50,178 nt of DNA, from the NCBI RefSeq assembly GCF_900115675.1, contig NZ_FOXI01000014.1, positions 1 to 50,178 on the forward strand. The letters run 5' to 3'. Numbering within the stretch: position 1 is the first letter of the stretch; every line of letters begins with the position of its first letter. Made by a program: the position numbers and the translations under genes. Under the pieces are notes generated by a model. The model ran no database searches and was not told where the DNA came from. It saw only the letters and a list, made by a program, of their open reading frames with translations. Shown here piece after piece: positions 3,570 through 32,379 of the stretch. The stretch is from Halolamina pelagica. GTDB taxonomy: Archaea; Halobacteriota; Halobacteria; Halobacteriales; Haloferacaceae.

Positions 3570-4169
3570 GTGTCACGTACCTCAAACCGCGCCGACGGCG
3601 ACATCGTCCAAGACTTCCTGTCGGTCGCTGACCTCCTCGAGGAGTCACAGCTCGCCCAGCTGTACGCGTACCTCGCTCGGGAGGGGGAGGCGACCGTTCA
3701 GGATGTGATGGACGACCTCGAACTCGCCCAGGGGACCGCCTACAGCTACGTCAACCGGCTCGTCGACGCCGACGTCGTCGACGTCACCGACGACGAACAG
3801 CCACGCCGGTACGCCGCCCGGGAGATCAATCTGACCGTGACGACGACCGCGGGCGACCGCGAGTACACGATCACGCCGGCGCTCATCGACGCCGTCGGCC
3901 GCCGCGAGACGGACGCCGACATCGACACCTACATCGACCGGCACGGCGTCGCCGGCCTCGCGACCGCGCTCACCTACGCGGTTGCCCGCGAACGCGGCGA
4001 GGTGACCCACCGGCTGATGGCGGAGGATCTCGACATCTCGCCGCTGGCTGCGGAGATGATCCTCCAGGCACTCCGGCCCGTCGTCCACGAGCACTACGAC
4101 ATCGAGGAGGCTGGGGCGGGACTCGACGAGTTGGATATCGACGACGGCGACGCGGCTGACGACGCGTGA
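3570..4169 (+). CDS. Winged-helix regulator, probable antitoxin-like partner of the PIN protein
   Basis: The protein has 199 aa. The N-terminal part (about residues 15-70) is a winged helix (QLAQLYAYLAREGEATVQDVMDDL, then a recognition-helix-like GTAYSYVNRLVDADVV), as in haloarchaeal MarR/ArsR-type regulators. A beta-rich segment follows (LTVTTTAGDREYTITPALIDAVG), then a helical domain (about 110-180) and an acidic tail. I chose the GTG start at 3570 because the HTH begins soon after it and the dyad/TATA lies at the right distance. The stop overlaps the next start by 4 nt (GTGA), so the two genes are translationally coupled. This HTH-then-PIN order recurs in haloarchaea and resembles a toxin-antitoxin or regulator-nuclease module. 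DNA binding is likely; antitoxin action is inferred. Confidence 0.7.
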   Translation: MSRTSNRADGDIVQDFLSVADLLEESQLAQLYAYLAREGEATVQDVMDDLELAQGTAYSYVNRLVDADVVDVTDDEQPRRYAAREINLTVTTTAGDREYTITPALIDAVGRRETDADIDTYIDRHGVAGLATALTYAVARERGEVTHRLMAEDLDISPLAAEMILQALRPVVHEHYDIEEAGAGLDELDIDDGDAADDA

Positions 4170-4675: not shown

Positions 4676-4983
4676 CTGATTGCTAGTCTGATTCGGGTGG
4701 AGAGGACCATCGAAAAGCCCTCGGCCGCTCGACGTCCCGCGACCGCGCGAGACGGAGTCTCGCTGGCCCTCGTTCGCTCCGCTCACGAGGACGCCGCTGC
4801 GCGCCTCGGGGCTGCGGTGCTTGCGGGGTCGGGGGACGGCCGAGGCGGCCTCGCCCTTTCTGAGTCCACCAGGACTGTAGATGCCTCACCGAGCGGCGTA
4901 GCCGGCTGGACAGGTGTGTACGTAGCGGCCCGCCCCGCTCGCCGCTGCCGCCCTCCGCGTCGCTCGCGACCGACCATTCCGTG
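4676..4983. other. GC-rich non-coding stretch between convergent units
   Basis: I see no gene here. The stretch is GC-rich, contains short palindromes, and ends in a copy (4936-4981) of a repeat also found at 11151-11198. Sequence beyond it becomes AT-rich abruptly, so it marks an island boundary. Confidence 0.6.
4936..4981 (+). repeat. Dispersed boundary repeat, copy 1
   Basis: Positions 4950-4981 are identical over 32 nt to 11167-11198, and about 14 further bases to the left are near-identical (CGCTCGCCGC). Both copies sit at edges of AT-rich islands. The two copies bracket the M50/TnpB/halocin block (4984-11150) in direct orientation. Confidence 0.8.
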
Positions 4984-6072
4984 TCACGCTATAAACAGCT
5001 GGTACCCGAACGAACCGACAAATCCGGCAATAAAGAGATATGCGCCCCAACTCCACCGGATTACTTTCGAGCCGTCAAGTGGAGGAATCGGGAGCATATT
5101 GAAGCCTGCAAGAATCGTGTTCAGTAGCACACCAATCCTGGATATTTCTGGGTATTGGCCAGCTAAGGCGAGAAAAATCAGCGCTAATACAATATTTGAG
5201 ACGGGGCCGGCAGCAGCTACTATGCCATGAACGCGCTCTGTAACAGCTCTGAATTTGACCGCACCTGGGAGCAAGAATAGGAGACCGGTGAGATATGCCA
5301 CTCCCACGGACACCAGATTAAGTACGTGAAATGCTGAAAAGCGAGCCGGCTTCCCGAATCCGAGTCCAATTGCCTTGTGCGATAGCTCATGGATGACGAG
5401 ACTCAAAATCAGCATACTCCCGATAAGAATGGTATTATCGAAGTTTTGAGAACCCAAGACGAGCCAGACGGCGATGGACATCGCTACAGTCGCATATCCC
5501 AAATCAACCAGTTCTCGGGGCTCGAAAATTTTGCTGGCCTCCGCTCCTACTAAGAGGAGTACAGCAGTCGACAGGAAGAACATCCACCAAACCAAATCGA
5601 AAGCCCCCACAACGTAGGCTGCAACGCCTAACGAGAATACCAAGTAGACCGCCATTCCAAGTAGATACCCGACCCCAGAAACTACTGCATCAAGAATTCC
5701 TGTTTGAGACTCTCGAATAACGTTCTCAGCTGTAGGGGCGCAGTCCTGACAGACCGGCTCACCGGGGGCCTCCCTGTATTCAATTAGATTCTGCTTCTGC
5801 TTGCCACAGATTGTACATTGACCGGCTCTACCACTGTTACTACTCTTGGATTGTTGCCTCTTCTGCGTGCAATCACGACAGGTAAGAGAAGACGTTTCTG
5901 AGATGTTCTCCGGTATAGTGTACTTCCTTTCCCCACAGATATCGCACTGGAAAGGTACTAAACACTCGTCACAGTAGACTTGTCCTCCTTCCCTCTGATA
6001 CTCCTGTTTAGTAGTGACGAGTGAGTTCCCGCATCGGGTACACTGAGCCCGAACGGGTTCCCTACCAGACAT
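4984..6072 (-). CDS. Membrane-embedded M50 (site-2 protease-like) metalloprotease with N-terminal zinc ribbons
   Basis: The protein has 362 aa. Residues 1-115 carry a series of CxxC pairs (CTRC, CDEC, CDIC, CRDC, CTIC, CQDC), enough for three zinc-binding modules. About six membrane segments follow. The active-site motif HELSH (HExxH) is in a membrane helix near residue 230. The partner motif NMLPIPPLDGSKVI (the LDG motif of M50 proteases) is near residue 330, preceded by AAGPVSNIVLAL. Site-2 proteases cut membrane-spanning substrates, often releasing transcription regulators; the substrate here is unknown. The ribbons may bind substrate or nucleic acid (inferred). A TATA box at 6094-6103 on this strand is centred about 27 nt before the ATG, so the mRNA is probably leaderless. 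Base composition is more AT-rich than its GC-rich neighbours. Confidence 0.85.
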   Translation of the reverse strand: MSGREPVRAQCTRCGNSLVTTKQEYQREGGQVYCDECLVPFQCDICGERKYTIPENISETSSLTCRDCTQKRQQSKSSNSGRAGQCTICGKQKQNLIEYREAPGEPVCQDCAPTAENVIRESQTGILDAVVSGVGYLLGMAVYLVFSLGVAAYVVGAFDLVWWMFFLSTAVLLLVGAEASKIFEPRELVDLGYATVAMSIAVWLVLGSQNFDNTILIGSMLILSLVIHELSHKAIGLGFGKPARFSAFHVLNLVSVGVAYLTGLLFLLPGAVKFRAVTERVHGIVAAAGPVSNIVLALIFLALAGQYPEISRIGVLLNTILAGFNMLPIPPLDGSKVIRWSWGAYLFIAGFVGSFGYQLFIA

Positions 6073-6093: not shown

Positions 6094-6103
6094 TTTTATA
6101 AAT
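6094..6103 (-). promoter_or_regulatory. TATA box of the M50 protease gene
   Basis: TTTATAAAAA on the minus strand lies about 27 nt before the ATG at 6072. That spacing fits a leaderless haloarchaeal transcript. Confidence 0.6.
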
Positions 6104-6212: not shown

Positions 6213-6596
6213 ATGGTCCAGATTCCTAACCCGTTCAGCCAGGATCTCGATACCCTTTCAGAAGATGATCTCTTGGATTGGTATGCCAGCGAGGTTTTCC
6301 CACCGCTACAGGACGACCGGAAGGGCTCCGTGTACCGGCGTATGATTCTCCGCCGTTTCTGGGAACGGAGGGGCAATAACCAACCCCGTGAATTGGATGA
6401 TGGAACTCCATACCGGTCAGAAGATTTGAGCCGCCTAGATCGGGCGATAAACGACGTTGCTGAAGCCCACGACCGCTACGAGAACACCGTTCAGAGTCAA
6501 TCTATTTGGGCGGTATACCACGGTGAAAACCAGAAAGAACAGTTCCTTGAGGATCTGCTGAAAATAGAAGAATTAGTTCTGGATCACCTGCAGTGA
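6213..6596 (+). CDS. Uncharacterised 127-aa soluble protein
   Basis: I do not recognise this protein. It is hydrophilic and helical, rich in Asp, Glu and Arg, with YRRMILRRFWERRG near residue 45 and a long helix at the C-terminus (EQFLEDLLKIEELVLDHLQ). No membrane segment, Cys pair or catalytic motif is visible. An upstream TTG at 6198 is in frame, but ATG 6213 is preferred because an AT-rich TATA-like run (TAAATTATTTAA, about 6171-6182) lies roughly 30-40 nt before it. It sits head-to-head with the M50 protease and shares its AT-rich composition, so the two may have arrived together. The gene is followed by a T-run at 6649-6654 that may end its transcript. Confidence 0.6.
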   Translation: MVQIPNPFSQDLDTLSEDDLLDWYASEVFPPLQDDRKGSVYRRMILRRFWERRGNNQPRELDDGTPYRSEDLSRLDRAINDVAEAHDRYENTVQSQSIWAVYHGENQKEQFLEDLLKIEELVLDHLQ

Positions 6597-6767: not shown

Positions 6768-6944
6768 ATGTCGGTTGACCCTACCGAGATCGAGGAGGCT
6801 GAAGTCGAACTAGAGGAGTGGTTGGTCGAACAGGCCGAGAACGGTGTTCCGGAAATCGTCCTGATCGGGCTCCTCCGGGATTACGCGGACGACATCGAAC
6901 AGCTCGGCTACGTGCCGCGAATGTGGGGTGAGTCAGAGCGGTGA
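6768..6944 (+). CDS. 58-aa acidic protein translationally coupled to TnpB
   Basis: This short ORF encodes [18 protein letters not shown]... and ends ...[12 protein letters not shown]. It overlaps the TnpB-family start by 4 nt (GTGA), so the two proteins should be made together. The sequence is almost entirely helical and strongly acidic, with a hydrophobic centre ([19 protein letters not shown]). No known domain is recognisable. Coupling to tnpB suggests a role in controlling or stabilising the TnpB protein, or in regulating the element; both are inference. It stands downstream of leader element 1 and an untranslated stretch of about 90 nt. I rate it a real gene because of frame continuity, codon use with GC-rich third positions, and the overlap. 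Confidence 0.7.
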
Positions 6945-8182
6945 GACGGACCAACACCTTCGAAGTCGTTCCACAATCGGAACAAGACGAGGCCGTCCTT
7001 CGACGCCTTCTCGATGCGTCAGCGAGCCTCTGGAACCAGCTGACGTATGCGCGCCGGCAGCAGTTCTTCGCCGGCGAGAGCGTCTGGGACTGTGAGAACT
7101 ACTACGACGAGTACGTCGACGTGTTGGGGTCGGCGACGACCCAGCAGGTCACCCGCGTCAACGACGCCGCTTGGCGGTCGTTCTTCGAGACGGTTGAGGA
7201 GGCCGACCAGGAGGTCAGTCCCCCCGGCTACTGGGGCAATCAAGCCGACGGGCGCGACCTGCGGACCTACATCCGCAACGACGCCTACACGATCAGTTGG
7301 GGCAAGCGCTCCCGGCTCGAAGTGCCCATCGGCAGCCAGCTCAAAGACGAGTACGGGTTCGGTCGGTTCGAGCGGCTCCGTGTTGCCGTCCGCGGTGAAC
7401 CACACTGGGAGGGCGAGCAGGGTCGCCTTCACCTCACCTACGACGACGTCGACGAGACGTATCGCGCCCACCAGCCGGTAACAGTCTCCGAAGCGGAACA
7501 GGCGACGCCGACGGGGACGGACGTCGCCGCCCTCGATATCGGCGCGAACGTCCTCGTGGCGTGTACGACGACGATCGGCGACCAGTACTGGTACAGCGGC
7601 CAGGAGCCGTTCCGACAGTTCCGTGAGACGACCGAGCACATCGCCGACGCCAAAGCGAAGCTGCCGGATGGACAGCAGACCAGCAATCGAATCCAGCGGC
7701 TCTATCGGAAGCGGTCCCGCCGGCGCGATCACGCCGTGAACGCGCTCCTTCGTGATCTGGTCGAGCGGCTCCACGACGACGGCGTCGAAACCATGTACCA
7801 CGGCGATCTCACCGGCGTTCTCGGCGAGTACTGGTCCGTCGAGGCGAACCTCAAAGCCTGCACTTTCTGGGCGCATCGACGATGTCTCGACCAGCTCGCG
7901 AACGTCTGCGAGGAGTACGGCATCGAGGTGGCCTCACTCTCCGAGGCCTGGACCTCCCAGACGTGTCCGGAGTGCGGGGAGCGCGAGCGGACGCGCCGGC
8001 ATCGCGAGACGCTGCGGTGTCCGTGTGGCTTCGAGGGGCACGCCGATCTCGTTGCGTCGCGGACGCTGCTCGAACAGGCGACGAACACCGAGGTCAGGCC
8101 GACGGCACGGCCCGTGCGGTTCCAGTGGGACGACCACCAGTGGGCCCCCGTCGAGGGGGCCGCGGTGGGGCCCAACGAATAG
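6941..8182 (+). CDS. TnpB-family RNA-guided nuclease homologue, one RuvC acidic residue apparently missing
   Basis: The protein has 413 aa. The RuvC-like core begins with [15 protein letters not shown] (first Asp, about residue 198). The zinc ribbon is present ([21 protein letters not shown]), and the last RuvC block is [14 protein letters not shown], with the third Asp. Where active TnpBs have the catalytic Glu (the EDL motif), this protein has YHGDLTGVL, so Glu is replaced by Gly with an Asp beside it. As I recall, related haloarchaeal proteins share GDL, so this may be a subfamily trait. TnpB uses a guide RNA from the element's 3' end to cut DNA; a dead RuvC would give an RNA-guided DNA-binding protein instead. 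No TnpA is nearby. The GTG start at 6941 overlaps the upstream small ORF. Confidence 0.85.
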
Positions 8183-8378: not shown

Positions 8379-9170
8379 TTAGACGGTGTTTCGACCGCCT
8401 CGAAATAGAATCGGTTCAGCAGTGTCTTTCACCGACTCGAACTGTTCGACCGCCCAGTCGACAGCGGTCTCAGTATCGTTCAGTATACAGCCCTGAATTC
8501 CTTTTTCTGTGTAGACGACGATACCCACATCCGTGTCATCGACGATCCACAGCCCATACGCGTAAGGGATTGGCCCACGGAGCAACGTGACGTCTGGGTC
8601 CTCTACAGCTTCTCTCGTCTCTTGGGGTTGCAACTCGTATAACTGGTCAAACACGTCTCCATCGACCACTAACTCCAATTCGTATGCATCACCTGTAACG
8701 GCAGCGTCGTAGAAGTCCATCGCTGAGCCCACAAGAGCCTTTGGCGCGAATCCACGAACGAGAGAGGCCTCGCGGATTGACTGAAGCATTGGGTCAAGAA
8801 CCGCGTCCGGGACGTTCTCCTCCGCAATATGCGCAGTTGACCCCGCGAGAAACGCTTCATGGATAGAAGTTTCGGTGGGGAGCGCAGCGAGAATCGGTGC
8901 TGCGTCGGCGAGATCGTTGAGAAACGATGCGTACTCGTCGTGTTTACGATATGCACACACCCCGGCCGCAGTTGCGTGCCATTCACCGTCCCGATACTCA
9001 ACGAGGTGTGCGTCAGCGAGCGAGCGCAGCACTCGATCAATCGTCGACCGCGAAGAGTCGAATAGTTCGGTAAGCTCACGTTTTGAACGTGGGGCCGCGG
9101 TGAGGACACGAAGAAATCCCGACCGGTCTGCGATGAGCGATTCAAAATCGGCGGGATCAGGTTGTTCCAT
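8379..9170 (-). CDS. HTH regulator with a FilR1-like sensor domain, divergent from the halocin gene
   Basis: The protein has 263 aa. The N-terminus is a winged helix (about residues 15-75: FLRVLTAAPRSKRELTELF, then SSRSTIDRVLRSLADAHLVEY). The C-terminal domain (about 120-255) has the layout of the FilR1/DUF1724 middle domain found in haloarchaeal and methanogen regulators, including LELVVDGDVFDQLYEL and LPYAYG-like PIPYAYGLWIVDD. Such proteins are DNA-binding regulators with an unknown ligand. It is transcribed away from the halocin C8-like gene, and the 190-bp spacer holds two inverted repeats and a hairpin, so control of that gene is likely (inferred). ATG 9170 gives the full HTH. It shares the moderately AT-rich composition of the halocin block. 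Confidence 0.8.
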   Translation of the reverse strand: MEQPDPADFESLIADRSGFLRVLTAAPRSKRELTELFDSSRSTIDRVLRSLADAHLVEYRDGEWHATAAGVCAYRKHDEYASFLNDLADAAPILAALPTETSIHEAFLAGSTAHIAEENVPDAVLDPMLQSIREASLVRGFAPKALVGSAMDFYDAAVTGDAYELELVVDGDVFDQLYELQPQETREAVEDPDVTLLRGPIPYAYGLWIVDDTDVGIVVYTEKGIQGCILNDTETAVDWAVEQFESVKDTAEPILFRGGRNTV

Positions 9171-9361: not shown

Positions 9362-10486
9362 ATGGAGGAATCAGACTCCGACCCCGACTTTGACGAGGAA
9401 CAGTATCAGAACGAACTGAACGACGCTGTTGACGATGGCGGTGGCTGTATGGAGACTCTCCAAGCAGCTAATCAGGTTTCCAACTCGAATGAGGCTAATT
9501 TTGGCAACTTTAACACTGATGAGAACCGGCGGTCTGTACTACAAAAAACAGTTGCCTCATTGGCTGGTGTTGCTGGGTTCGGTGGACTGTCCGGAATGGC
9601 TGCCGGCAGTAAAGGATCGACCGAGCCGAAATCCCGGGCATCTGACGACCCCGACTTCGAAGCAACTGATGTCGAAGTCCGTGCGGGTGACGAGGTTCCC
9701 CGAGCGACCGCTATGGCGCTGAATAATTCGGAAATCAACAAGCTCAAAGCTGTGATGCGATCCGAAGGGAAGATGCAGCCCTCTGGCATAGTTTCTGTCG
9801 ATGTTGAGACAACCGATCCTGATCTGAACGATGTAGATCCTCGGGTGGTGATCGTTCCTTTTGAACCCGTTGGCAACCGTCCGGTCGATCCTCGGGACAC
9901 AACTGGACAGACCGATCCAGCGAACGTCGGTGCATTGTTTGCCGTCACCGTCGTACAAGAAGGCGAGCGTCAAGCGGCAACCGCATTCGGGGTTGCTTCT
10001 CACCCAACACAGTCAGGAGCAAAAACCATCGAAAGAGTTGACAACGGTGCTTCAGACGCTGGGCAGTTCCAGGCCAAGCTGATGACGTTCGGCCAAGATC
10101 AGGCCGGCGAAGAGCCAGCAATGGTCGGATCCCAGACGACCAAACTTCCCATCCGAAATGCTCGTCGCCCGAACCAGGACCAGAACAGTTCCAGTTCGTT
10201 GAACTCGGTAGGGACAGGCTCCGGGGCCCTCTCCACGGCGCAGGTGTCCGAAGGCTCGATACTCTCCTGTTTCCAATGTACTACGCTGGTCGGTATCCTG
10301 TGTAAACTTGGAGGGGGTCGCCTTAGCCAAAGTACCTGTCTAGTGCGGTGTCTGCCTCTAATTACTACTATCGGGGGTTATCTGATCTGTTCCGGGGGCT
10401 GTCTGTTGGTCGTCGAGGCGATTTCACGTGTCGGCTGTGGACTTGGTTCAGGGTACGTCTGTATTGTCGCAGGGTACTGTAACTGA
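9362..10486 (+). CDS. Halocin C8-like precursor (Tat signal, immunity-type propeptide, 10-Cys microhalocin)
   Basis: The protein has 374 aa. A twin-arginine signal (NRRSVLQKTVASLAGVAGFGG, about residues 55-75) is preceded by an unusually long acidic leader. A hydrophilic propeptide of about 220 residues follows, then a hydrophobic Gly/Cys-rich C-terminus of about 76 residues starting near SEGSILSC. I count ten cysteines there (SC, FQC, LC, TC, RC, IC, GC, GC, VC, YC). Halocin C8 is a 76-aa, ten-cysteine peptide cut from the C-terminus of a Tat-exported pro-protein whose N-terminal part (HalI) gives immunity. The layout here matches, although the mature sequence looks diverged. The role is therefore an antimicrobial peptide against other haloarchaea plus self-protection (family knowledge). 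The ATG at 9362 follows a candidate operator. Small membrane-protein genes follow. Confidence 0.85.
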   Translation: MEESDSDPDFDEEQYQNELNDAVDDGGGCMETLQAANQVSNSNEANFGNFNTDENRRSVLQKTVASLAGVAGFGGLSGMAAGSKGSTEPKSRASDDPDFEATDVEVRAGDEVPRATAMALNNSEINKLKAVMRSEGKMQPSGIVSVDVETTDPDLNDVDPRVVIVPFEPVGNRPVDPRDTTGQTDPANVGALFAVTVVQEGERQAATAFGVASHPTQSGAKTIERVDNGASDAGQFQAKLMTFGQDQAGEEPAMVGSQTTKLPIRNARRPNQDQNSSSSLNSVGTGSGALSTAQVSEGSILSCFQCTTLVGILCKLGGGRLSQSTCLVRCLPLITTIGGYLICSGGCLLVVEAISRVGCGLGSGYVCIVAGYCN

Positions 10487-10518: not shown

Positions 10519-10704
10519 ATGACTCAAACAAACACGGATTCCGCTCGACTTCGTACTCGAATCGCCCTTTCTGTCGTCGGTGTGGTGGGTGCTGCCGCCC
10601 TCGGTTACCTCCTCCGAGGGCCAGAAGTCGCGTTAGCTATCGGCGCCGGCGTTGCTGTCGTGGAACTCTTTGTTGCGCTGTATCAACGCGTTAGGACAAC
10701 GTGA
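10519..10704 (+). CDS. Small membrane protein next to the halocin gene
   Basis: This 61-aa protein begins MTQTNTDSARLRTR and has two hydrophobic stretches (IALSVVGVVGAAALGYLL and VALAIGAGVAVVELFVALY) joined by RGPE, giving a helical hairpin in the membrane. I do not recognise a family. It lies 32 nt behind the halocin C8-like precursor on the same strand, so co-transcription is likely, and a role in immunity, export or maturation is possible but unproven. A TATA-like ACTATAAATT (about 10508-10517) just before the start may also allow its own transcript, though it is closer to the ATG than usual. Confidence 0.6.
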   Translation: MTQTNTDSARLRTRIALSVVGVVGAAALGYLLRGPEVALAIGAGVAVVELFVALYQRVRTT

Positions 10705-11062: not shown

Positions 11063-11150
11063 CGGAAGTCGGGATCGGGGTTTGCTGAACAGACTTTGAT
11101 CAGGCGCTAACGTCTCAATCTTCTCCAGTATCAAGCGTTTACGGCTCGCA

Positions 11151-11198
11151 CCGCTCGCCGCATTCCGCCCTCCGCGTCGCTCGCGACCGACCATTCCG
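11151..11198 (+). repeat. Dispersed boundary repeat, copy 2
   Basis: It is the second copy of the 4936-4981 repeat in the same orientation. Positions 11167-11198 are identical to 4950-4981. It marks the right edge of the AT-rich 5-11 kb island. Confidence 0.8.
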
Positions 11199-11493: not shown

Positions 11494-11561
11494 CCGCGAT
11501 GTAAGGGCATCGCGGTGTCGGCGCGTGAGCGCCTTCGTCGGAAATCACCTTGTGAGTGATT
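11494..11561 (+). promoter_or_regulatory. Three tandem stem-loops in the leader of the OB-fold protein gene
   Basis: The stem-loops are CCGCGATG-TAAGGG-CATCGCGG (11494-11515), GGCGC-GTGA-GCGCC (11520-11533) and AATCAC-CTTGTGA-GTGATT (11543-11561). The last ends 3 nt before the ATG. TCGTCGGAAA occurs on both sides of the first two hairpins. This looks like a folded 5' UTR. Confidence 0.55.
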
Positions 11562-11564
11562 CCA

Positions 11565-12431
11565 ATGTCTAGTAACAACGCTAGCGGAAAGATCGTTTCG
11601 GTCGATGAACAGGCATTCGAGAAAGCGGACGAGCAGGCGGTCGATGAAGATGGCTTCCCGGTCGTCGACGAGACGCCGGAGTTCGAGGCGGCAGTCGAGC
11701 AGGAGACGCAGGCGAAGGTGGATGCGAACCACCCGGACGGGATCGCGGACACGAGCGAGGACCGGATTCACGGTGTCACCCTCGAACAGGAAGAGCGCAT
11801 TCAGGCGCGGGAAGCCGAACTGGAGCGCATCAGTGCCCAGGCCGAGCTGGGAACGCAGGAGGGCCGGGAGCAGCGCACGCGGGAGGTCGTCAGCGAGCTG
11901 TGTGGTCGTGACGAGCCGGCGCCGACGGAGCGCACGGATCCCCGTGAGAAGCTGACGCAAGACGAACTCGCGAAGGTGAACAAGCAGGCGATGCGCATCA
12001 GCGACGAAGTGAAAGGCGGCTGGTCGAGAGCGGTCGTCGCGAAGCAGCTGGCCGAGAAGGTGCAGCGCGGACGGGACGTCACGAAGGCGGTGCTGGAGAC
12101 CCTCGAGGAGTTGAAGGCGGCGCCGGGGGCGATCGTGCCCATCGCGGACGTGCCGGACGTCCCGGTCGGTGAGGTGACGGTCGAAGGCACAGTGAGCGAG
12201 CTCTGGGAGCCTTCCTCCACGAGCATCCAGCAGGTCGGGCTGATAGCGGATGACAGCGGGAAAATCAAGTTCACCGTTTGGAACAAGAGCAACCAGACAG
12301 TGGTGCAGAAAGGCGAAACGGTCCGGTTTCGGGCAGCAGCCAAGAACTGGTACGAAGGCCGGTGCTCAATTGCGCTAACCGGGTGGTCGGATATCCACTT
12401 TCCGGAGCGCGGTCGGTGGTGGGAAGAATAG
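11565..12431 (+). CDS. OB-fold single-stranded DNA-binding (RPA-like) protein
   Basis: The protein has 288 aa. Residues 1-190 are acidic and helical, with a coiled-coil-like segment (EQEERIQAREAELERISAQAELG). The C-terminal 100 residues form an OB fold: VPVGEVTVEGTVSELWEPSSTSIQQVGLIADDSGKIKFTVWNKSN, then VQKGETVRFRAAAKNWYEGRCSIALT. This matches haloarchaeal plasmid and viral RPA-like proteins, which coat ssDNA in replication and repair. An in-frame GTG at 11556 lies inside the last leader hairpin; ATG 11565 is preferred. The heavily structured leader suggests post-transcriptional control, perhaps by the protein itself (inferred). A T-rich run at 12444-12457 probably ends the transcript. No partner gene is adjacent, so it is likely monocistronic. 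Confidence 0.8.
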   Translation: MSSNNASGKIVSVDEQAFEKADEQAVDEDGFPVVDETPEFEAAVEQETQAKVDANHPDGIADTSEDRIHGVTLEQEERIQAREAELERISAQAELGTQEGREQRTREVVSELCGRDEPAPTERTDPREKLTQDELAKVNKQAMRISDEVKGGWSRAVVAKQLAEKVQRGRDVTKAVLETLEELKAAPGAIVPIADVPDVPVGEVTVEGTVSELWEPSSTSIQQVGLIADDSGKIKFTVWNKSNQTVVQKGETVRFRAAAKNWYEGRCSIALTGWSDIHFPERGRWWEE

Positions 12432-12443
12432 CGAGGATGCGGT

Positions 12444-12457
12444 CTCTTTCTTTTTTA
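12444..12457 (+). terminator. T-rich terminator behind the OB-fold gene
   Basis: TCTCTTTCTTTTTT lies 13-26 nt after the stop codon. Runs of T are typical archaeal terminators. Confidence 0.5.
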
Positions 12458-12476
12458 TGTGCCAGACCAGACCCAA

Positions 12477-12501
12477 GCCCCACCGCCCCACCCTCCGCTC
12501 C
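12477..12501 (+). repeat. 25-nt direct repeat, left copy, flanking the LAGLIDADG gene
   Basis: It is identical to 13335-13359, and about 15 bases to the left are also similar (GCCAGACCAG versus GCCGGACCAG). It can also pair with GGAGGGTGGGGTGGTG near 12547-12562 as a long hairpin. Confidence 0.8.
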
Positions 12502-12599
12502 GTGCTCGCTCCCTGCGGTCGCTGCGCGCGCAGCCACGACCGTTGTGGAGGGTGGGGTGGTGAGTTGATCTCTTCTCGTCCAATATGTAGCAGGGAGAG

Positions 12600-12629: not shown

Positions 12630-13259
12630 ATGTCAAATAGTTCACCCGAGACCCACGATTTCGATGCGTGGTTCACTGGCTTCTTCGACGGCGAAGGCTG
12701 TATCCGCATCGCAATTGCCGACCGTGAGCGGTACAGTACCGGCTTTGAACTTGCACCAATGCTCCGAATCACCCACGAACAGTTGACCGGAACTCTCGAC
12801 GCAGAAGGCTGGATTGGCGTGAAAGTAAACCAGAATAGTGAGTATCGAGTCGACCACCGACTTCAGCCGCAAATCGAGGTCACCGAAACATATCGTGACC
12901 ACCTGATGGAGGCGCTCTGTGCGTACTGTGATGCTCACGATGTGAACTGTCATGTGTCCAGTCTCGAAGCCAATGAGAACCGGAGCGATCAGTACATTTG
13001 GGGCGTGCAGGGTATCAGCAATACCCGGACGCTCCTCACCCCGCTCCGCGATCAGTTCATTGTCAAGCGCGAGCAGGTCGATCTCCTCCTTGACGAGATT
13101 CTGCCCCGGATGGACCAGGGCGTCCATCACGAGAAAGAAGGCTTTCTTGAGGTGATGTACTACGTCGACCGGTTCAACTCGTACAAAGGTGGCAGTCGAG
13201 GGAAATACACACTCGAGTATTTCGAGGAACTCTGGGGGATGGAATACACTCCCGAGTAG
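12630..13259 (+). CDS. Free-standing LAGLIDADG homing endonuclease-like protein
   Basis: This 209-aa protein has two LAGLIDADG-type helices, WFTGFFDGEGCI (about residues 14-25) and LTGTLDAEGWIGV (about 51-63), each ending in the acidic residue that binds the metal. The second is followed by the usual beta-sheet (YRVDHRLQPQIEV) and the helical arrangement HLMEALCAYCDAHDV. The two motifs are only about 37 residues apart, whereas a normal two-domain enzyme has about 100, so the first half looks internally shortened. Such enzymes cut long, rare DNA sites and promote their own copying. No intron or intein host surrounds it. It is flanked by 25-nt direct repeats, consistent with a mobile cassette (inferred). 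It could now serve as a regulator rather than a nuclease. Confidence 0.75.
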   Translation: MSNSSPETHDFDAWFTGFFDGEGCIRIAIADRERYSTGFELAPMLRITHEQLTGTLDAEGWIGVKVNQNSEYRVDHRLQPQIEVTETYRDHLMEALCAYCDAHDVNCHVSSLEANENRSDQYIWGVQGISNTRTLLTPLRDQFIVKREQVDLLLDEILPRMDQGVHHEKEGFLEVMYYVDRFNSYKGGSRGKYTLEYFEELWGMEYTPE

Positions 13260-13334
13260 TTGTATCGCGCGGTTGCCCCACGAGAGAGCCAGATGACGAC
13301 ACCTCTTGTTTTAGTGAGCGCCGGACCAGCCCGA

Positions 13335-13359
13335 GCCCCACCGCCCCACCCTCCGCTCC
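13335..13359 (+). repeat. 25-nt direct repeat, right copy, flanking the LAGLIDADG gene
   Basis: It is identical to 12477-12501. It lies 75 nt after the endonuclease stop, behind a T-rich run (CTCTTGTTTTAG) that resembles the run before the left copy. Confidence 0.8.
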
Positions 13360-13451
13360 CGGCCTCCCTCCGGTCGGCCGGCAGCCACAACCGGAGTCAC
13401 AGTTTTCGGGAGTGATTTAGCGCGGGGCAAGACCACTGTCGCGACGGAGTC

Positions 13452-13711: not shown

Positions 13712-13810
13712 GAATCGAAGGCCAGTGAGAACCTGAAGCGGGGGCTGAGGAGCTGTAACTTCTAGTCGGTTCGTCTGATTTTCAAACTCCAATTTCAGTA
13801 CATGGTTATC

Positions 13811-13818
13811 TTTTATTT
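13811..13818 (+). promoter_or_regulatory. TATA box of the KAP NTPase gene
   Basis: TTTTATTT is centred about 26 nt before ATG 13841. It decides the start against the upstream in-frame ATG at 13802. Confidence 0.6.
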
Positions 13819-13840
13819 GGGTGCTGGCAGATTCGAAGCC

Positions 13841-16800
13841 ATGACCGGTGACGATGGACGTGTCTTTCTCTCTGATGAGCCAATAGAGTCGACAAATCAA
13901 GATCGGTTCGAGCATCAAGAGTACGTCGACGCACTTGAGCAGATACTGGAGAACGCAGAGCCACGATGGAATATCGGTGTATTCGGGAAGTGGGGGACGG
14001 GCAAGAGCTCGATAATCAACCTCTTGTTCGACCGTCTGAGTGACAATCCCAAGTTTGAGAACACGGTCTGTGTAGAATTCGATGCATGGACACACGCGGA
14101 AGACTCGATTCGGACAGACCTGCTTCTCGGTATCGACCACGAACTCGGTCAGAAGACAGACACGAAGATTGATAGTGAGTACGGTATCCTCGGAGAGGAC
14201 CACATAACAGAGGAGCTCTACGACATTACGGAAGACAACAGTAGCGATAACCCAGATCTCCGTGAGTATGCACAGCAACTCCTCACCCAATCGAAGTTCG
14301 TCACGGCGACTGTCGCGATAACTGCGGTAATCCTGATAGCAGGAGTAGTCATCAACGCCCTGAACGCCTTCGGTATCTTCACTCCGGGTCAGGATCTAAT
14401 GGGGACAGCGAATAGCATCCTCCAGATTGCCATTTTGCCTCTATTTCTCAGTCTCTTCATTTTCATGGCGAAGCAGGTCGAGGACGCGACATCGACGCTT
14501 CGTCAGCGGTATCCGCGTAATGATTGGTCCGGTGCGTATGAGCAGCTGTTCGAAGAAATGCTCGACGAACTGATGGAAAAGACGGAGTACGAACAGGTTA
14601 TCATCTCCGTCGACAATCTGGACCGGTGTGAAAGCGACACCGTCTACGATGTCCTGGTCTCCCTCAAGACGTTCATGGGCAACGACCGCTGCCTCTACAT
14701 TATTCCCTGCGACGACGAGGCGCTTCTCAGCCACATCCAGTCTATCGACCGGGGGGAATACTTCGAAGAGAACGAAAATGAGCAGGAATTCCTACGGAAA
14801 CTCTTCCAAGCCCACGTCCGTATTCCGCCGTTCACCAGTGACGCTATCTCCGATTATGCTGCTGAACTAAACGGCCAACTCAAGCACGGTTACGATGAGG
14901 AGGTTCTCTCGGTCATCACGAAAGCATACGTCCGAAACCCGCGCCGTATAAAACAGGCACTCAACCGTCTGACGACGCTACGGATGTTGGCCGAGGAAAT
15001 AGAGGACACTCAACGAATGCGTGAAGGAGTGATTACCGGCAACCTCCCGTTCTTGGCGAAGATGTCGATATTGCAGGAGGACTTCCCAGAGTTCTATCGG
15101 TCCCTACAAACGAACCCACGTCTACTTGAGGAGTTCAATGACTACTTCGCTGGTCGTGTGATGGACCCGGAACGAAAGGAAGAACTGGCATCACACTTCG
15201 AGCCGACAGAAGACGGGAACGGAAAGTCCGTGGAAGGCCTTCGAGAGTTTCTGTCTTCCACACGGTACATCACTGACAATAACCCACGCCGATTCATCTA
15301 TCTGAGCGAGCCACCGTACACGCTCACACTTGAAGACGGTGACCGCTTCGTCGAAGATCTACGTGCGCGACAGGTCGATAAGGTTCGCGACGAACTGGAT
15401 GCCCTATTTGAAGACGAGGGGGACTTCGGGCCATACCGCGAGGCAATTGACGATACGCTTGACGAGTGGAGTCATCTTGATTCAGAGCTCTTCAACATCA
15501 TCGAGGGGTTGATGGAGGTATTCGATGCTCTGGATGACGACGCCCAGACTCAGGTATCCCGAATGGTAAGTGAGTACCTGGTCTCCGTAGACAGGCGGCA
15601 CTTCTTGGAAGATTTGGATCCCAGCATCTCGTTCCCGATGATACTCAAAATGCAACCACGTGACTCACGTCTGCTCTTTGGGGCTTATGGTGAACTGGCC
15701 GCTGATTCAGAAACCCTTCAGGAGAATATCCTTGATGCGTTCGTTAAACACGCGGAAGGAATTCCGGAGTCTGCGAACCGATCCCTGACCGAGAGTCTTG
15801 TTCAGCTACGTGAGAATCAGCAGGAAGACGTGTTCAAAACGGCGCTCGACAAAATTCACAGTTCGGCAGCCGCACGGGACAAATTCGCCACCACGAAGCT
15901 GCTGACGGAGGCCATCAAGCTGATTGAGTTGGGTAATAACGAACGTCAGTTTGAGAACGAGGACTACTACCAGAAGTTCGACTCGGATGCATCTACCGAG
16001 GCCCGAGGTACGTTCATCGAAAAATTGCTTGATCTCCGGAACGAAGTTGAAGATAACAATATCAACCATATCAACGACAGTATTTCGAATATCCTCCTCA
16101 AGATCGAATCTGACCTACCACGTCAAACTGCGAGTCATCTCTACAACGAATTCCACGGGATGGTAAATGCCCCGAGTAATAATGAAAAGAATCTGGTTGA
16201 GACGCTCTTCTATCACTATGACACGCTCTCGTCGAGTGACCAGAACCGATTCCGTCAGGAATGTATGAAACAGATTCAGAACTGGGGTGGAACCGGACAG
16301 CAGTATCTGAAGTGGGCTCAACAGTATGATGTGCCCCTGCTTGATTCAGAAGACGCAGTGACGACAGCACTGGACCCGTTCCCGGACCAGAATACGAACA
16401 CGGGGCTCCTCACCAACACAGTCTTATCGCTGATACCTAAGGAGTTCGACGAAGAACTGACCTCGCCGAAGTTGATTGAGATCTTGGACAACAACGATGA
16501 CTCTCGTGCACAGCTTGGTGCAGAGATGTTTTCCACCGCACCAAAGCGATTCGAGAGTGTTCAAGACAAGGTAGTCAGTACGTGTCTTAAAAAAGTAAAC
16601 AAGACAAACGACACGAGCAGTAAACAGATCTATCTGACTGCTGTTGCCGAAGTGTTTACTGACCTTTCTGACAGTGATCAGGAACTGTTCCTCAGTCGGC
16701 TAACCGACCTTGCGCGTGGGAACAATAAGGACAAGCAAGCGTTCTACCGTGTGTGGAATGAAGTCAAATCAAACCTAACTTCTAATCACCGTCGCAAGGT

Positions 16801-17191
16801 GGGTCAAAACGTACTCTCCATTCTGGAAGACGAAGTGAGTGACCAGAATCAACAGGTTCCGACTGATGACTTGGTCAAAGTTCTCCAATCGGTGACCGAC
16901 AACCTCGCTACAAACGCGCACGAAGAGTTCATTCAACGGCTGAGTGATGAACTGACAGATGGAAACGTCGGATGGCAACAGAAACAGGACATCGTGGGCC
17001 AACTCGCCGCATTCGACGATCTCGCCGGGCAGGAGGATCTAGTCCTAACTCGTATCGAAGGAATGTTGAAACAGAACTCTCAGAACCAGCTCCACCAGAC
17101 CACCAAAAAGAAGCTTGCTACCCTTGAGGGGCACGACGGAATAGATGAAACTAAAATTGAAGAAATCCGGGAGCACCATCTGAAATTATAA
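13841..17191 (+). CDS. KAP-family P-loop NTPase with inserted membrane helices
   Basis: The protein has 1116 aa. Residues 1-400 form a KAP domain. FLSDEPIE is at the very start, Walker A is GKWGTGKSS (about 49-57), and VEFDAWTHAEDS is the KAP-typical block after it. Two membrane helices are inserted in the NTPase (about 160-185, VTATVAITAVILIAGVVINAL; about 197-217, LQIAILPLFLSLFIFMAK). Walker B is VIISVDNLDRCESD (about 255-268), and YVRNPRRIKQALNRL is the sensor region. The remaining 700 residues are a helical repeat-like extension without recognised motifs. KAP NTPases are membrane-anchored and some act in phage exclusion (PifA type). A sensor/effector arrangement is therefore plausible (inferred). 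The TATA at 13811 supports a leaderless start. GC content is lower than in the flanks. Confidence 0.85.
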   Translation: MTGDDGRVFLSDEPIESTNQDRFEHQEYVDALEQILENAEPRWNIGVFGKWGTGKSSIINLLFDRLSDNPKFENTVCVEFDAWTHAEDSIRTDLLLGIDHELGQKTDTKIDSEYGILGEDHITEELYDITEDNSSDNPDLREYAQQLLTQSKFVTATVAITAVILIAGVVINALNAFGIFTPGQDLMGTANSILQIAILPLFLSLFIFMAKQVEDATSTLRQRYPRNDWSGAYEQLFEEMLDELMEKTEYEQVIISVDNLDRCESDTVYDVLVSLKTFMGNDRCLYIIPCDDEALLSHIQSIDRGEYFEENENEQEFLRKLFQAHVRIPPFTSDAISDYAAELNGQLKHGYDEEVLSVITKAYVRNPRRIKQALNRLTTLRMLAEEIEDTQRMREGVITGNLPFLAKMSILQEDFPEFYRSLQTNPRLLEEFNDYFAGRVMDPERKEELASHFEPTEDGNGKSVEGLREFLSSTRYITDNNPRRFIYLSEPPYTLTLEDGDRFVEDLRARQVDKVRDELDALFEDEGDFGPYREAIDDTLDEWSHLDSELFNIIEGLMEVFDALDDDAQTQVSRMVSEYLVSVDRRHFLEDLDPSISFPMILKMQPRDSRLLFGAYGELAADSETLQENILDAFVKHAEGIPESANRSLTESLVQLRENQQEDVFKTALDKIHSSAAARDKFATTKLLTEAIKLIELGNNERQFENEDYYQKFDSDASTEARGTFIEKLLDLRNEVEDNNINHINDSISNILLKIESDLPRQTASHLYNEFHGMVNAPSNNEKNLVETLFYHYDTLSSSDQNRFRQECMKQIQNWGGTGQQYLKWAQQYDVPLLDSEDAVTTALDPFPDQNTNTGLLTNTVLSLIPKEFDEELTSPKLIEILDNNDDSRAQLGAEMFSTAPKRFESVQDKVVSTCLKKVNKTNDTSSKQIYLTAVAEVFTDLSDSDQELFLSRLTDLARGNNKDKQAFYRVWNEVKSNLTSNHRRKVGQNVLSILEDEVSDQNQQVPTDDLVKVLQSVTDNLATNAHEEFIQRLSDELTDGNVGWQQKQDIVGQLAAFDDLAGQEDLVLTRIEGMLKQNSQNQLHQTTKKKLATLEGHDGIDETKIEEIREHHLKL

Positions 17192-17211: not shown

Positions 17212-18048
17212 TCATCCACCAAAACCAAACAGTACACCTAAGAGGACAAGAACTACCTGACCAAATCCAGTTATTGCCAAGTATACAGCAAAGCGATTCG
17301 GACGCCACCACTCTGCTCTTCCATAGACATATCCAATATTCTCGAAAATATAGGATAGGTTGCGTATGGCTACAGTGAAGAATAGTGCAGCACCGTTAAT
17401 GAGGAATTTTTGGAGCGGTCCATCTCCGGGTAGCATTCCGAGGAATATAGACAAGTCCCCGACGAAGGGGAGCATCTTGATTGTTTTTGCGATATATTCC
17501 ATCAACTCCGGTGGGACGAGGTTCCCTTCGATTGATGAGTTAATTGCGCCGGTGAAACCGAAATACTCCACAGTCAGTACGAAGCTAATTAGGAGAATCA
17601 CAGTACCGAAGTAGAAGAAGAATCCACGTGTTAGCCACCGCGCTGTCCTCCTTTCAGCCTTTGGAAGAAGATCAGATGGTGGTTTCTCTATGGAATCTTT
17701 CTCCTTCTCAGCGCTTTCAAACGGAGGCGTATGTTCTCTCCACGATGTCTGCATCACATGGCGTAGCCAAAAGAGCAAACGAAGGAAGTAGACAGCCGCA
17801 ACTGCCACGAAAAGGGCGATAGAGAGCCACATAAGCAGATCGCCAATATCGTCTCGCCAGAAAGAATAATATCCGAATTCATCACCTGTTCCGTGTATCT
17901 TGTCGTACAGCGTGATGTAAAGTAAACCACTCAGTGCTGGGAGAGCGACTACTACTGTCAGGCCAGAGATTCCTACAAATAAGCGATAGAACTGATAGAG
18001 TCGATCTTGGATATCAGAATTAGATATTATTCCATAGTATTCCACCAT
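17212..18048 (-). CDS. Membrane protein, function unknown, convergent with the KAP gene
   Basis: This 278-aa protein has about five or six membrane segments (around residues 22-48, 70-95, 140-165, 185-205 as an amphipathic stretch, 215-235 and 255-278). A charged soluble loop lies between about 100 and 135 (EHTPPFESAEKEKDSIEKPP). I do not recognise the family. Its stop lies 20 nt from the KAP stop on the other strand. It is 10 nt downstream of another membrane-protein gene on the same strand, so the two form an operon. The shared AT-rich composition with the KAP gene suggests the three came as one block. Association with the KAP NTPase in the membrane is only an idea. Confidence 0.6.
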   Translation of the reverse strand: MVEYYGIISNSDIQDRLYQFYRLFVGISGLTVVVALPALSGLLYITLYDKIHGTGDEFGYYSFWRDDIGDLLMWLSIALFVAVAAVYFLRLLFWLRHVMQTSWREHTPPFESAEKEKDSIEKPPSDLLPKAERRTARWLTRGFFFYFGTVILLISFVLTVEYFGFTGAINSSIEGNLVPPELMEYIAKTIKMLPFVGDLSIFLGMLPGDGPLQKFLINGAALFFTVAIRNLSYIFENIGYVYGRAEWWRPNRFAVYLAITGFGQVVLVLLGVLFGFGG

Positions 18049-18058: not shown

Positions 18059-18880
18059 TCAGTTCTGAAGCGACCAGTTCGTTTCTTCTATTTCTAGATT
18101 ATCACAGTGTTCGCAACAGAGGATGCGGTGGCCGTTCACTTCTCGCCCATTATCTGTCGCTTGTACGTCCTTATTTGGACGATAGTACCGCCCCTTACTT
18201 GCCAGACCGAATGGGTGCCCACAATCTGGACATGTGTAGTCTGACTTGAATTGCAGGTACGCCAGTGGAGTGAATAGAAGTATCACTGCAGGGAAAATTG
18301 AGATGATTGCGGTTCCCATATCGATCGAAAGTGGTGACAATTGCGCAATCGTAGTCATATAGTTCTGGTTTGGCCAAGAGGTCCCAATCACCTCAGCGAA
18401 TATGAGAAAGAGCCACATCCCACCGATAGTTGAGATAGCAAAAAGAAGGAGCATAATTCTCTGTCTGGTGACGTACTGAGACTTGAGGGCAATCGAGGAC
18501 AACCAATTGAACCCCCTCAAAACTGAGCGATAATTCTTGAAAGTGTTGTCCTGATAACTCCGCCAATCCGGACTACTTCGCATTTCTTCTGCTATCTCTT
18601 TATTAGTCAACTCTGACCACTTCCGTCCACCATCCGATTTTTCGGGCATAGTCTGTGTCGTTACGTTCTTGTGTTGGATAACTTGGAATTTCGTCCCTTC
18701 CGCTGGTTTCTCTAAGTACTGTTGAACAGTGAGCATCGTCCCGACGAAAGACAGAGGGAATGAAATGAGCGACGTGACTCCAAGATCGAAGACAGTGTGG
18801 AGTATGAACGTAAGGAAAACAGCAAATACGACAGCGATTACGATTGCTGACGACAGAGCAGCTGTCCGTCGGTCAATCAT
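18059..18880 (-). CDS. Membrane protein with a C-terminal zinc ribbon, function unknown
   Basis: The protein has 273 aa. Membrane helices lie at about residues 8-30, 35-52, 140-165 and 190-215. Between the pairs is a soluble helical region (RKWSELTNKEIAEEMRSSPDWRSY). After the last helix comes a cytosolic-looking zinc ribbon, CPDCGHPFGL...CCEHCDNLEIEE. I do not recognise the family. It is first in a two-gene minus-strand operon with the 278-aa membrane protein (10-nt gap). A weak TATA (CATATTTT on this strand) lies about 25 nt before the ATG. The ribbon could bind nucleic acid or a partner such as the neighbouring KAP NTPase (inferred). Confidence 0.6.
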   Translation of the reverse strand: MIDRRTAALSSAIVIAVVFAVFLTFILHTVFDLGVTSLISFPLSFVGTMLTVQQYLEKPAEGTKFQVIQHKNVTTQTMPEKSDGGRKWSELTNKEIAEEMRSSPDWRSYQDNTFKNYRSVLRGFNWLSSIALKSQYVTRQRIMLLLFAISTIGGMWLFLIFAEVIGTSWPNQNYMTTIAQLSPLSIDMGTAIISIFPAVILLFTPLAYLQFKSDYTCPDCGHPFGLASKGRYYRPNKDVQATDNGREVNGHRILCCEHCDNLEIEETNWSLQN

Positions 18881-18969: not shown

Positions 18970-18995
18970 TATTTTACCCCTCAATGGGTGAGGGG
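18970..18995 (+). promoter_or_regulatory. Leader element 4, in front of the TFB gene
   Basis: TATTTTA is followed by the perfect hairpin CCCCTC-AATGGGT-GAGGGG (18977-18995). It ends 39 nt before ATG 19035. The loop has the family's GGGT. Confidence 0.65.
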
Positions 18996-19034
18996 CTCGC
19001 TGCACTGGCGGGTTCCCGAAACACGGTGAGAACG

Positions 19035-19961
19035 ATGGCAACCAGAGACATCTACGAGAACGGATTCGACGAAGACATCCGAACTGAATCGAGTGCGAAC
19101 CAATGCCCGGAATGCGACGGCCGGGTCACCACGAACGCGGTCGAAACAGTCTGCGAAGACTGTGGCCTGGTCATCGACGAACAGCGTATCGATCACGGGC
19201 CGGAGTGGCGGGCGTACGACGACGAGGAGCGCGAGCGAACGGGCGCCCCACTTACTGCGGCTCGCCACGATCGCGGCCTGTCGACGGAAATCGGTCGCGG
19301 CACCGACGCGAAGGGGAACCAGATCTCTGGGCAGAAGCGACGGCGACTCGCCCGGATGCGCCGTGAGCAGACACGTGGTCGCTGGCGGTCGAAATCGGAA
19401 CGGAATCTCGCCCACGGACTGGGCGAAGTGCGCCGGTTGGCGAGTGCCCTCGAGCTCTCCGATTCGGTCCGCGACCAGGCGTGCCAGCTCTTCCGGAGCG
19501 CCCAGAACGAGGATCTGCTTCGTGGAAGATCCATCGAGGCCATCGCCGCGGCCAGCGTCTACGGGGCCTGCCGGTGTAACGGTCTCTCGCGATTGGTAGA
19601 TGACGTCAGCGAGGTGGCCCGCGTCGCGGAGTCCCGGGTCACGAACGCGTACAAAACGCTGAACGAAGAGCTGGGCCTCCCCGCTGAGCCCGTCTCCCCC
19701 AGCATGTTCGTGCCGCGACTCGCCTCGGACCTCGAGTGTCCAGACGAGATCCGACAGCGGGCTCGAATGCTCGCGGAGCAAGCTGAAGAGCGCGGCATCA
19801 CGACCGGCGTCCATCCGGCCGGGTTCGCAGCGGCCTGTCTCTACAAGGCCGGTCGCGAGGAGGGGCGATGGCTGACGCAAAGTGACGTTGCCGAGTCCGG
19901 GGATGTCACGTCAACCACGGTTCGGACGCATCACGAGACGCTCAATGAGCTCGCTATCTAG
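19035..19961 (+). CDS. Transcription initiation factor IIB (TFB)
   Basis: The protein has 308 aa. The N-terminal zinc ribbon is CPECDG...CEDCGLVIDE (about residues 25-50), followed by the B-reader and linker (GPEWRAYDDEERERTGAP, RHDRGLSTEIG). Two cyclin folds follow, with GRSIEAIAAASVYGACR (about 165-181) and GITTGVHPAGFAAACLY (about 258-274). It recruits RNA polymerase to TBP-bound promoters. An in-frame ATG at 18984 lies inside the leader hairpin, so ATG 19035 is taken as the start. It is a paralogue of the partial TFB at 1-816. Its leader element is shared with 16 other genes here, raising the possibility that this TFB serves, or is controlled with, that set (inferred). The 3' end overlaps the convergent TumE-like gene by 4 nt. 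Confidence 0.95.
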   Translation: MATRDIYENGFDEDIRTESSANQCPECDGRVTTNAVETVCEDCGLVIDEQRIDHGPEWRAYDDEERERTGAPLTAARHDRGLSTEIGRGTDAKGNQISGQKRRRLARMRREQTRGRWRSKSERNLAHGLGEVRRLASALELSDSVRDQACQLFRSAQNEDLLRGRSIEAIAAASVYGACRCNGLSRLVDDVSEVARVAESRVTNAYKTLNEELGLPAEPVSPSMFVPRLASDLECPDEIRQRARMLAEQAEERGITTGVHPAGFAAACLYKAGREEGRWLTQSDVAESGDVTSTTVRTHHETLNELAI

Positions 19962-21128: not shown

Positions 21129-22022
21129 ATGAACCAACCGATGCACAACAGATATTCTGACTTTGAGGAACTGCGGCCGACCGGCGAAGCGTCCCACATT
21201 CCAGACCAGAGGCTGGACGACGGGTGTGAGGGTGACACCCGGCGGCAACGCGTCGCGACGACCACGGGTGGCTACCCTGACGAGCCGTCGACCACCGACG
21301 GCGAGTGCCGGTCCTGTGGGACGTCAGTCCCAGACGGGCAGACGAAATGCCGGTTCTGTCTTACCAACCATCTCGGTAGTGACGCCACTAACACGAACGA
21401 GGCAGCGTCGACGACGTTCCTCGGCATCGTCCATCTGGTCGTCGAGTCGACCACGTTCTACGGCGCCGTCGCGAAAGGCGGCGCCGCGGGGAACCTTCTC
21501 TCTGCCAACGAGGCGGAGCCGGCCGTCGACGACTACACGCTCATCTACGATCTCGACGAGGCGCCGGCGCGCCAGCTGGCCGAGCAATGGCCCTCACTTC
21601 CCGACGCGGTACAGGTGTCGTCAGAGGAGGGAGAGCCGCTTCTCAGTGCCGCCCGTGACCGGACTGGGTGGCACGGGCAGGAAGCGTCGGAGCGTCAGGA
21701 GCAGGCCCCGACGCGGCTCTACGACCAGCGTGGGGACCGCATCCGCGACGCGTCGCGTCTCGACGCGGTCCTCGACGACGCCGACAATGCGGTGTGGCTG
21801 GTTCCAGCGATGGTGCTGACCGAATCTACTGGCGAAGCTGCGGCTGATCGCCAGGCGTCGTCGGTACCGACGACGCAGGAACTCGACTGTCAAAACTGTG
21901 GACAGGCGACCGACCATCGGTTCAAGACCCACGAGTCGGTCCCGGATGCGGCGTGGACGGGGCAACCGATCTGGGAGTGCCGGGTGTGTGGCTCTGCCCG
22001 CTACGGACCTAGTCTCGAGTAG
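21129..22022 (+). CDS. Plasmid-type protein with N- and C-terminal zinc ribbons, function unknown
   Basis: This 297-aa, acidic protein has a first ribbon CRSCGTSVPDGQTKCRFC (about residues 59-76) and a second one at the C-terminus, CQNCGQATDHRF...WECRVCGSARYG (about 254-291). The central region (about 95-240) is a compact domain (TTFLGIVHLVVESTTFYGAVAKGGAAGNLLSA, VDDYTLIYDLDE, AVWLVPAMVLTE) of unknown fold. Similar proteins occur on haloarchaeal plasmids, but I know no reliable function. It has no membrane segment or signal. The gene is divergent from the HTH/TumE pair with a 124-bp spacer. An inverted repeat of the TTAACCAAC family stands 19 nt behind its stop. Confidence 0.65.
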   Translation: MNQPMHNRYSDFEELRPTGEASHIPDQRLDDGCEGDTRRQRVATTTGGYPDEPSTTDGECRSCGTSVPDGQTKCRFCLTNHLGSDATNTNEAASTTFLGIVHLVVESTTFYGAVAKGGAAGNLLSANEAEPAVDDYTLIYDLDEAPARQLAEQWPSLPDAVQVSSEEGEPLLSAARDRTGWHGQEASERQEQAPTRLYDQRGDRIRDASRLDAVLDDADNAVWLVPAMVLTESTGEAAADRQASSVPTTQELDCQNCGQATDHRFKTHESVPDAAWTGQPIWECRVCGSARYGPSLE

Positions 22023-32328: not shown

Positions 32329-32379
32329 AGCTGGAGCGAGCAACCACATCCGGTGCGTCGGCGTTACGAGGTGTTCGAG

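Follow-up and report, generated by a model that had tools for sequence, protein, structure and literature searches.

The window analysed here, a stretch of 50,178 bases that is exactly the whole of its contig, encodes a membrane protease of Halolamina pelagica in which three four-cysteine modules are joined to a site-2 protease (S2P). The protein of 362 residues is read from an open frame spanning exactly 4984..6072 on the minus strand, as the preliminary description had it. What is new is the presence of three zinc modules on an S2P, the kind of protease itself being already known. We favour, giving it about an even chance of being right, the reading that this is an S2P carried as plasmid cargo, which uses cytosolic zinc modules to dock its substrate or to gate the substrate’s access. 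How the protein is built, that its catalytic motifs are intact, what its core is related to, how rare the fusion is and that it lies in a variable slot are read from the sequence itself; all steps from docking to cleavage are what we infer.

Protease core and zinc modules of the fusion

Six CxxC pairs in front of an M50 membrane protease with HELSH and PPLDG motifs had been recognised at the outset, and the 362-residue frame, its motifs and Pfam bear this out. All twelve cysteines of the protein (residues 11, 14, 34, 37, 43, 46, 65, 68, 86, 89, 108 and 111) lie within the six CxxC motifs, a number reached by none of 20,000 protein shuffles. The C-terminal half narrowly passes the Pfam threshold for PF02163 (Peptidase_M50; 28.1 bits against a cut-off of 27.2). 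Located from the sequence and an S2P alignment, the HELSH zinc-binding motif occupies residues 228–232 (5377..5391, minus strand), and PPLDG, residues 330–334, includes the LDG motif (residues 332–334; 5071..5079, minus strand), whose D333 we take from family knowledge to be the third zinc ligand. Across 49 aligned S2Ps, the fusion and 48 haloarchaeal relatives, H228, E229, H232 and D333 are invariant, so that the active site of the fusion looks intact.

Residues 182–362 (4987..5529, minus strand) correspond, by alignment, AlphaFold2 and Foldseek, to a minimal haloarchaeal-type S2P core. This core has HExxH/LDG motifs and 30–42% aligned identity in common with the minimal haloarchaeal S2Ps (HVO_1555/HVO_1862 type, M50B; available text of PMC9263693), which lack the 180-residue N-terminal extension of the fusion with its three zinc modules and two membrane helices. 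AlphaFold2 gave block-mean pLDDT values of 60–94 over residues 181–360, lowest at 251–270, and placed HELSH in a predicted helix (212–238) and LDG directly after another (308–325). The top PDB match in Foldseek was the M. jannaschii S2P MJ0392 (3b4r; prob 1.00, E 0.015), with TM-scores of only 0.24/0.38, and the same entry was the sole S2P matched by the fusion in a PDB sequence search (E 0.059); its core fold is like that of the fusion, but nothing in it matches the zinc modules. By its Pfam match, zinc ligands and fold, the protein is an M50 / site-2 protease and is predicted to be proteolytic.

The N-terminal extension begins with modules 1 and 2 (C11,C14/C34,C37 and C43,C46/C65,C68; residues 1–72, 5857..6072, minus strand), of which residues 7–72 align with a profile of small membrane proteins that we call ZnR2-TM (hhalign prob 95.1). 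Module 3 (C86,C89/C108,C111; residues 75–122, 5707..5850, minus strand) resembles both the ClpX N-terminal zinc domain and aMBF1-type ribbons. A 47-aa piece of it matched the ClpX zinc domain 2ds5 in phmmer (E 0.0029), in a gap-free alignment of 42 residues with matching cysteine spacing that ends ...IRE. In shuffle tests, whose figures are optimistic because their targets were chosen by search, the best score of modules 1–2 against ZnR2-TM was reached by none of 2000 cysteine-preserving and by 13 of 2000 cysteine- and glycine-preserving shuffles, and that of module 3 against ClpX by none of 2000 under either scheme; module 3 fitted an aMBF1-type ribbon about equally well (0/2000). Cross-controls were not clean (modules 1–2, 89/2000 against aMBF1 and 40/2000 against ClpX; module 3, 4/2000 against ZnR2-TM), and we regard the similarities as weak, treating that of module 3 to the ClpX zinc domain as a likeness rather than as proven homology.

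In Pfam, the best match of module 3 was the generic Zn_ribbon_8 (E 0.0063, below cut-off); PF24250 (HVO_2718-like, aMBF1-type) gave E 0.052 and 13.7 bits, below its cut-off of 30.3, and the 47-aa piece, searched with a limit of E 5, matched no ClpX zinc-finger model. On modules 1–2, Lar_restr_allev (E 0.0015) and Elf1 (E 0.0057) both fell below cut-off. AlphaFold2 assigned the ribbons block pLDDT values of 44–63 in the full protein and a mean of 55 when modelled alone. Of the three zinc ribbons of the preliminary description, the three N-terminal four-cysteine modules stand, but ribbon folds are not confidently predicted; the label ‘zinc ribbon’ is a loose one, and module 3 may be treble-clef-like.

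Between the modules and the core, hydropathy, AlphaFold2 and loop charges place two extra membrane helices (about residues 126–150 and 158–181, within 124–182; 5527..5703, minus strand), modelled by AlphaFold2 as helices 115–154 and 160–182 with pLDDT 50–69. Given an N-terminus inside and a re-entrant half-helix at 249–262, all loops with lysine or arginine fall on the ribbon side, while neither residue occurs in the three short loops predicted to be external. This charge bias, from the topology prediction proposed at the outset for finding the side that the ribbons face, makes it most likely that they are cytosolic. The re-entrant segment is our reading of the AlphaFold2 model; if residues 248–272 fully crossed the membrane, loop 273–281, with three lysines or arginines, would break the charge pattern.

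Distribution of the fusion and of its parts

Used as a query, the core found a match in all 391 sampled genomes of the class (own genome included), and the whole fusion, at E 1e-5, in 146 of 148 family and 140 of 246 phylum genomes. Among the matches listed, no whole-protein match other than the protein’s own starts before residue 173. Frames were taken from 84 S2P loci, one of which (L117) gave none; the remainder amount to 81 distinct proteins, including the chromosomal copy of the same genome (L008), and are judged to be of the minimal type from their length and absence of extra domains. No CxxC occurs in 79 of them, and a single one in each of the other two, in stretches that look untranslated. 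Twenty-four genomes gave multiple matches, and the two outlying extra S2P copies read from them (L125, L126) are both without ribbons.

No second copy of the fusion was found in the genomes, plasmids, phages and viral contigs searched. In plasmids and in phages alike, five records matched part of the protease core, and there was no close relative of the whole fusion. The N-terminal 185 residues had no match in plasmids and the S2P alignment none in viral contigs; a near-exact peptide-word search, blind to distant copies, found the fusion in no other viral or genome contig. A literature search likewise did not find zinc ribbons combined with a site-2 or intramembrane protease, domain-classification work aside. 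The fusion thus appears rare, a singleton in these data, and the housekeeping S2Ps of this sample do not show it. The preliminary description had called it unusual unless it proved common in the housekeeping S2Ps of haloarchaea, and with none of the 81 relatives sharing it, that assessment holds here.

The N-terminal 197 residues matched 41 of the 391 class genomes at E 0.01 (own genome included), the best E in any other genome being 2.6e-6. In 19 other loci read from these matches there was no S2P with ribbons. Seven (L040–L046) encode ZnR2-TM proteins, seven look like aMBF1-type regulators, among which L048 was confirmed by PF24250 at E 8e-53, and the other five are transporters or wrongly picked frames.

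The ZnR2-TM proteins (L040–L046, overlapping L171–L175), of about 147 aa, have two four-cysteine modules like ribbons 1–2 of the fusion, followed by a membrane segment, but no protease. They are rare (9 of 381 genomes; five named loci) and had no match in viral contigs, and none of 12 loci scanned has an S2P near them. Hydropathy gives one clear membrane helix in the three members tested, a second being seen by eye, and the similarity of their membrane segment to fusion residues 113–185 is not significant (36 of 2000 shuffles reach the score). At one locus (L040), the ZnR2-TM gene lies beside genes that resemble, by eye, those at 21129–22022 and 32239–32871 of the window.

Other departures from the minimal S2P were also seen in the same phylum. 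S2P-like proteins at L143–L151 have large N-terminal ectodomains (PKD-like or repeat-like, read by eye), six of which (L143–L148) show HDxxH in place of the expected HExxH, and in a 383-residue open frame at L152 an M50-like protease is apparently joined to a GNAT-like acetyltransferase, the domains again being read by eye.

A variable slot on a haloarchaeal plasmid

The gene had been described as plasmid-borne. Indeed, the 20 best-listed haloarchaeal plasmids match 16–33% of the first 25 kb of the window at 83–94% identity and with synteny, and a plasmid location is well supported for this contig, which is not shown to be closed. Two TFB-like regions (1–816 and 18984–19961) resemble each other at 71–80%, and the apparent start of the contig within the first of them may explain why the assembly stopped there.

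Two bases from the S2P stop codon ends the left copy of a GC-rich 57-bp direct repeat (4926..4981), whose right copy (11142..11198) is 93% identical to it. In plasmids of Halobaculum, Halobacterium and others, the same DNA runs uninterrupted at the repeat. Sixteen plasmid loci were fetched, 13 of which have the repeat element and an RPA-like gene and make 14 counted together with the window (L061, L167 and L168, without RPA-like gene, were left out). The slot is occupied, between two repeat copies, in five of the 14 (the window, L059, L136, L137 and L139), and empty, with a single copy, in nine (L060, L138, L140, L163–L166, L169 and L170). Its right neighbour in 13 of the 16 plasmid loci is an RPA/Ssb-like OB-fold gene, found here at 11556..12431 on the plus strand (PF21473, E 0.00019, 22.0 bits, below the cut-off of 24). 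Matches to parts of the repeat element and of the DNA around it occur in 150 plasmid records, and no annotation seen for the occupied slots names an integrase.

Besides the S2P, the slot of the window contains the TnpB of an IS200/IS605-type element (6941..8182, plus strand; PF01385, PF07282), a winged-helix regulator with a FilR1_middle domain by Pfam (8379..9170, minus strand) and a halocin C8-like precursor (9362..10486, plus strand; TIGR04449, 47.8 bits against a cut-off of 24). The halocin gene is 100% identical over 1125 nt on Halorubrum trapanicum pCBA1232-01, where the slot has the same TnpB and regulator, and where a 615-aa ORF, weakly DUF2254-like and below cut-off, replaces the S2P and its divergent neighbour. 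The Halapricum slot holds an LmuA/Avs2-like protein (PADLOC E 3.6e-10 and 1.1e-08), TnpB and an annotated HEPN protein, that of Natrinema halophilum three hypothetical ORFs, and that of Halorubrum salinarum TnpB only. The G+C content of the S2P gene is 50%, against 64–68% in the backbone genes wHTH, PIN-like and RPA. Judged by this repeat-bounded, variable setting and by its low G+C, the S2P gene is cargo of the plasmid and not part of its backbone. A TATA-like TTTATA (6097..6102, minus strand; a consensus match only) begins 30 nt before the start codon.

Further along the contig, a LAGLIDADG ORF (12630–13259) lies between the copies of a second, weaker repeat pair (12449–12542 / 13303–13393, with small gaps), which suggests a similar insertion. 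A KAP-family NTPase (13802–17191) resembles PifA/QatA, far below the QatA cut-off, and is followed by two membrane-bound-looking proteins (17212–18048 and 18059–18880) with no Pfam, PADLOC or NCBIfam match; the three are possibly a defence-type module.

The only gene closely linked to the S2P is a divergent one (6213..6596, plus strand), which has a 140-bp intergenic region in common with it and encodes a 127-aa acidic protein without a membrane-helix-like stretch. This product has no Pfam, PADLOC, PHROG or NCBIfam match, and 22 of 391 genomes match it at E 0.01 (own genome included). A profile scan of the loci of this gene detected an S2P only in the window’s own; with none in the loci of its 11 relatives (1.9–3.3 kb each), we reject it for now as a partner of the S2P. 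Neither the divergent gene product nor the regulators at 3570–4169 and 8379–9170 have a 19-residue hydropathy window above 1.6, so no membrane-anchored regulator is recognised nearby; the S2P aside, membrane-helix-like stretches in the slot occur only in the halocin precursor and a 61-aa ORF (10519–10704). These neighbours lend no support to the regulated release of a membrane-bound factor, which had been thought conceivable, and the suggested search for conserved neighbours yielded neither a conserved partner nor a substrate. The substrate is probably not encoded next to the fusion gene and may be encoded at a distance.

Possible functions of the fusion

Accessory modules are a known pattern among S2Ps, as a CBS or PDZ module is present in some of those of H. 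volcanii and absent from others, their role being listed as unknown in the available text of PMC9263693; S2Ps are likewise called unstudied in that of PMC4343526. The PDZ protein HVO_1870 and the CBS protein HVO_0285 combine a core protease with an accessory module as the fusion does, but the type of module differs, theirs being described in the same portion of PMC9263693 as binding the C-terminus of a target or a ligand. Module 3 has a four-cysteine spacing like that of the ClpX N-terminal zinc domain, although the latter sits on an AAA+ unfoldase and module 3 on a membrane protease; the excerpt of PMC9035409 consulted calls ClpX ZBDs essential both for recognising substrates and for interacting with adaptors. 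The role of the ClpX zinc domain, together with the accessory modules on H. volcanii S2Ps, makes docking or gating the simplest mechanism, and the earlier idea that the ribbons recognise a substrate is plausible in view of the resemblance of module 3 to ClpX.

In the docking mechanism, the three four-cysteine modules would be zinc-loaded and cytosolic, with a role comparable to that of the ClpX N-terminal zinc domain or of the PDZ and CBS modules on other S2Ps, and would dock either the cytosolic part of the substrate or an adaptor. Docking would gate the entry of the substrate’s membrane helix to the HELSH/LDG site, and intramembrane cleavage would then release or destroy the substrate. With no second copy of the fusion, there is no conservation in support of a function.

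Only the location of the fusion suggests a possible role in defence or antagonism, in which the modules would sense the nucleic acid or a protein of an invader, and a host membrane protein would be cut by the protease or a membrane-held toxin or regulator set free by it. The slot in the plasmid backbone is variable, and its other occupants include the LmuA/Avs2-like protein with the annotated HEPN protein as well as the halocin C8-like gene; other backbone intervals hold annotated DrmE, Piwi and dGTP hydrolase, and the window itself has the KAP NTPase resembling PifA/QatA. However, neither the fusion nor the divergent gene matches any PADLOC family at E up to 0.1. Among the four other occupied slots, there is a PADLOC match in L137 and a halocin gene in L059, while PADLOC reached no better than E 0.0098 with the ORFs tested from the slots of L059 and L136, and L139 has TnpB only; an enrichment test would need more than five occupied slots. 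The literature searched holds no joint mention of ‘site-2 protease’, ‘anti-phage’ and ‘defense system’. The work on protease-activated haloarchaeal antagonism in PMC12893001 concerns secreted serine proteases, with no mention of M50 or intramembrane proteases in its available text, and the part of PMC4158269 consulted, on archaeal dark-matter islands, mentions neither zinc ribbons nor intramembrane proteases. We consider a defence effector unlikely.

That the modules are a zinc or redox sensor, a metal- or thiol-responsive switch of the protease and not a docking platform, seems to us rather unlikely as well. All twelve cysteines are on the predicted cytosolic side, and four-cysteine sites can serve as redox switches, but the modules resemble zinc-binding domains (ClpX ZBD, aMBF1-type ribbons), and the family matches in the slot include no recognisable gene for metal transport or redox functions. 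Decidedly unlikely is a more far-reaching proposal, in which a defence or antagonism protease gated by cytosolic ClpX-like modules would be exchanged as cargo between 57-bp repeats, and the minimal S2P universal among haloarchaea would have the stand-alone ZnR2-TM proteins as its adaptors or substrates; the Rosetta-stone argument behind the latter is weakened by the single clear helix of ZnR2-TM.

We think it improbable that the protein is a chance fusion or a near-neutral paralogue of the housekeeping S2P drifting on the plasmid, as might be supposed of a singleton in all searches whose G+C content departs from that of the backbone genes, since its frame is open, its catalytic motifs and six CxxC pairs are intact, and a TATA-like box stands at −30. 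A role in maturing, or in conferring immunity to, the halocin C8-like peptide, whose gene lies 3.3 kb away in the same repeat-bounded slot, is disfavoured and very improbable, as the identical halocin gene of the Halorubrum trapanicum plasmid occurs without an S2P in the slot and the S2P here is divergently oriented, with the TnpB element in between.

If the fusion is, as we favour, a cargo S2P with docking modules of its own, it would offer a handle on the role of S2Ps in H. volcanii, and its zinc modules would be usable as bait. Should the cargo-slot reading prove true, intramembrane proteolysis would join the plasmid-borne conflict functions in archaea.
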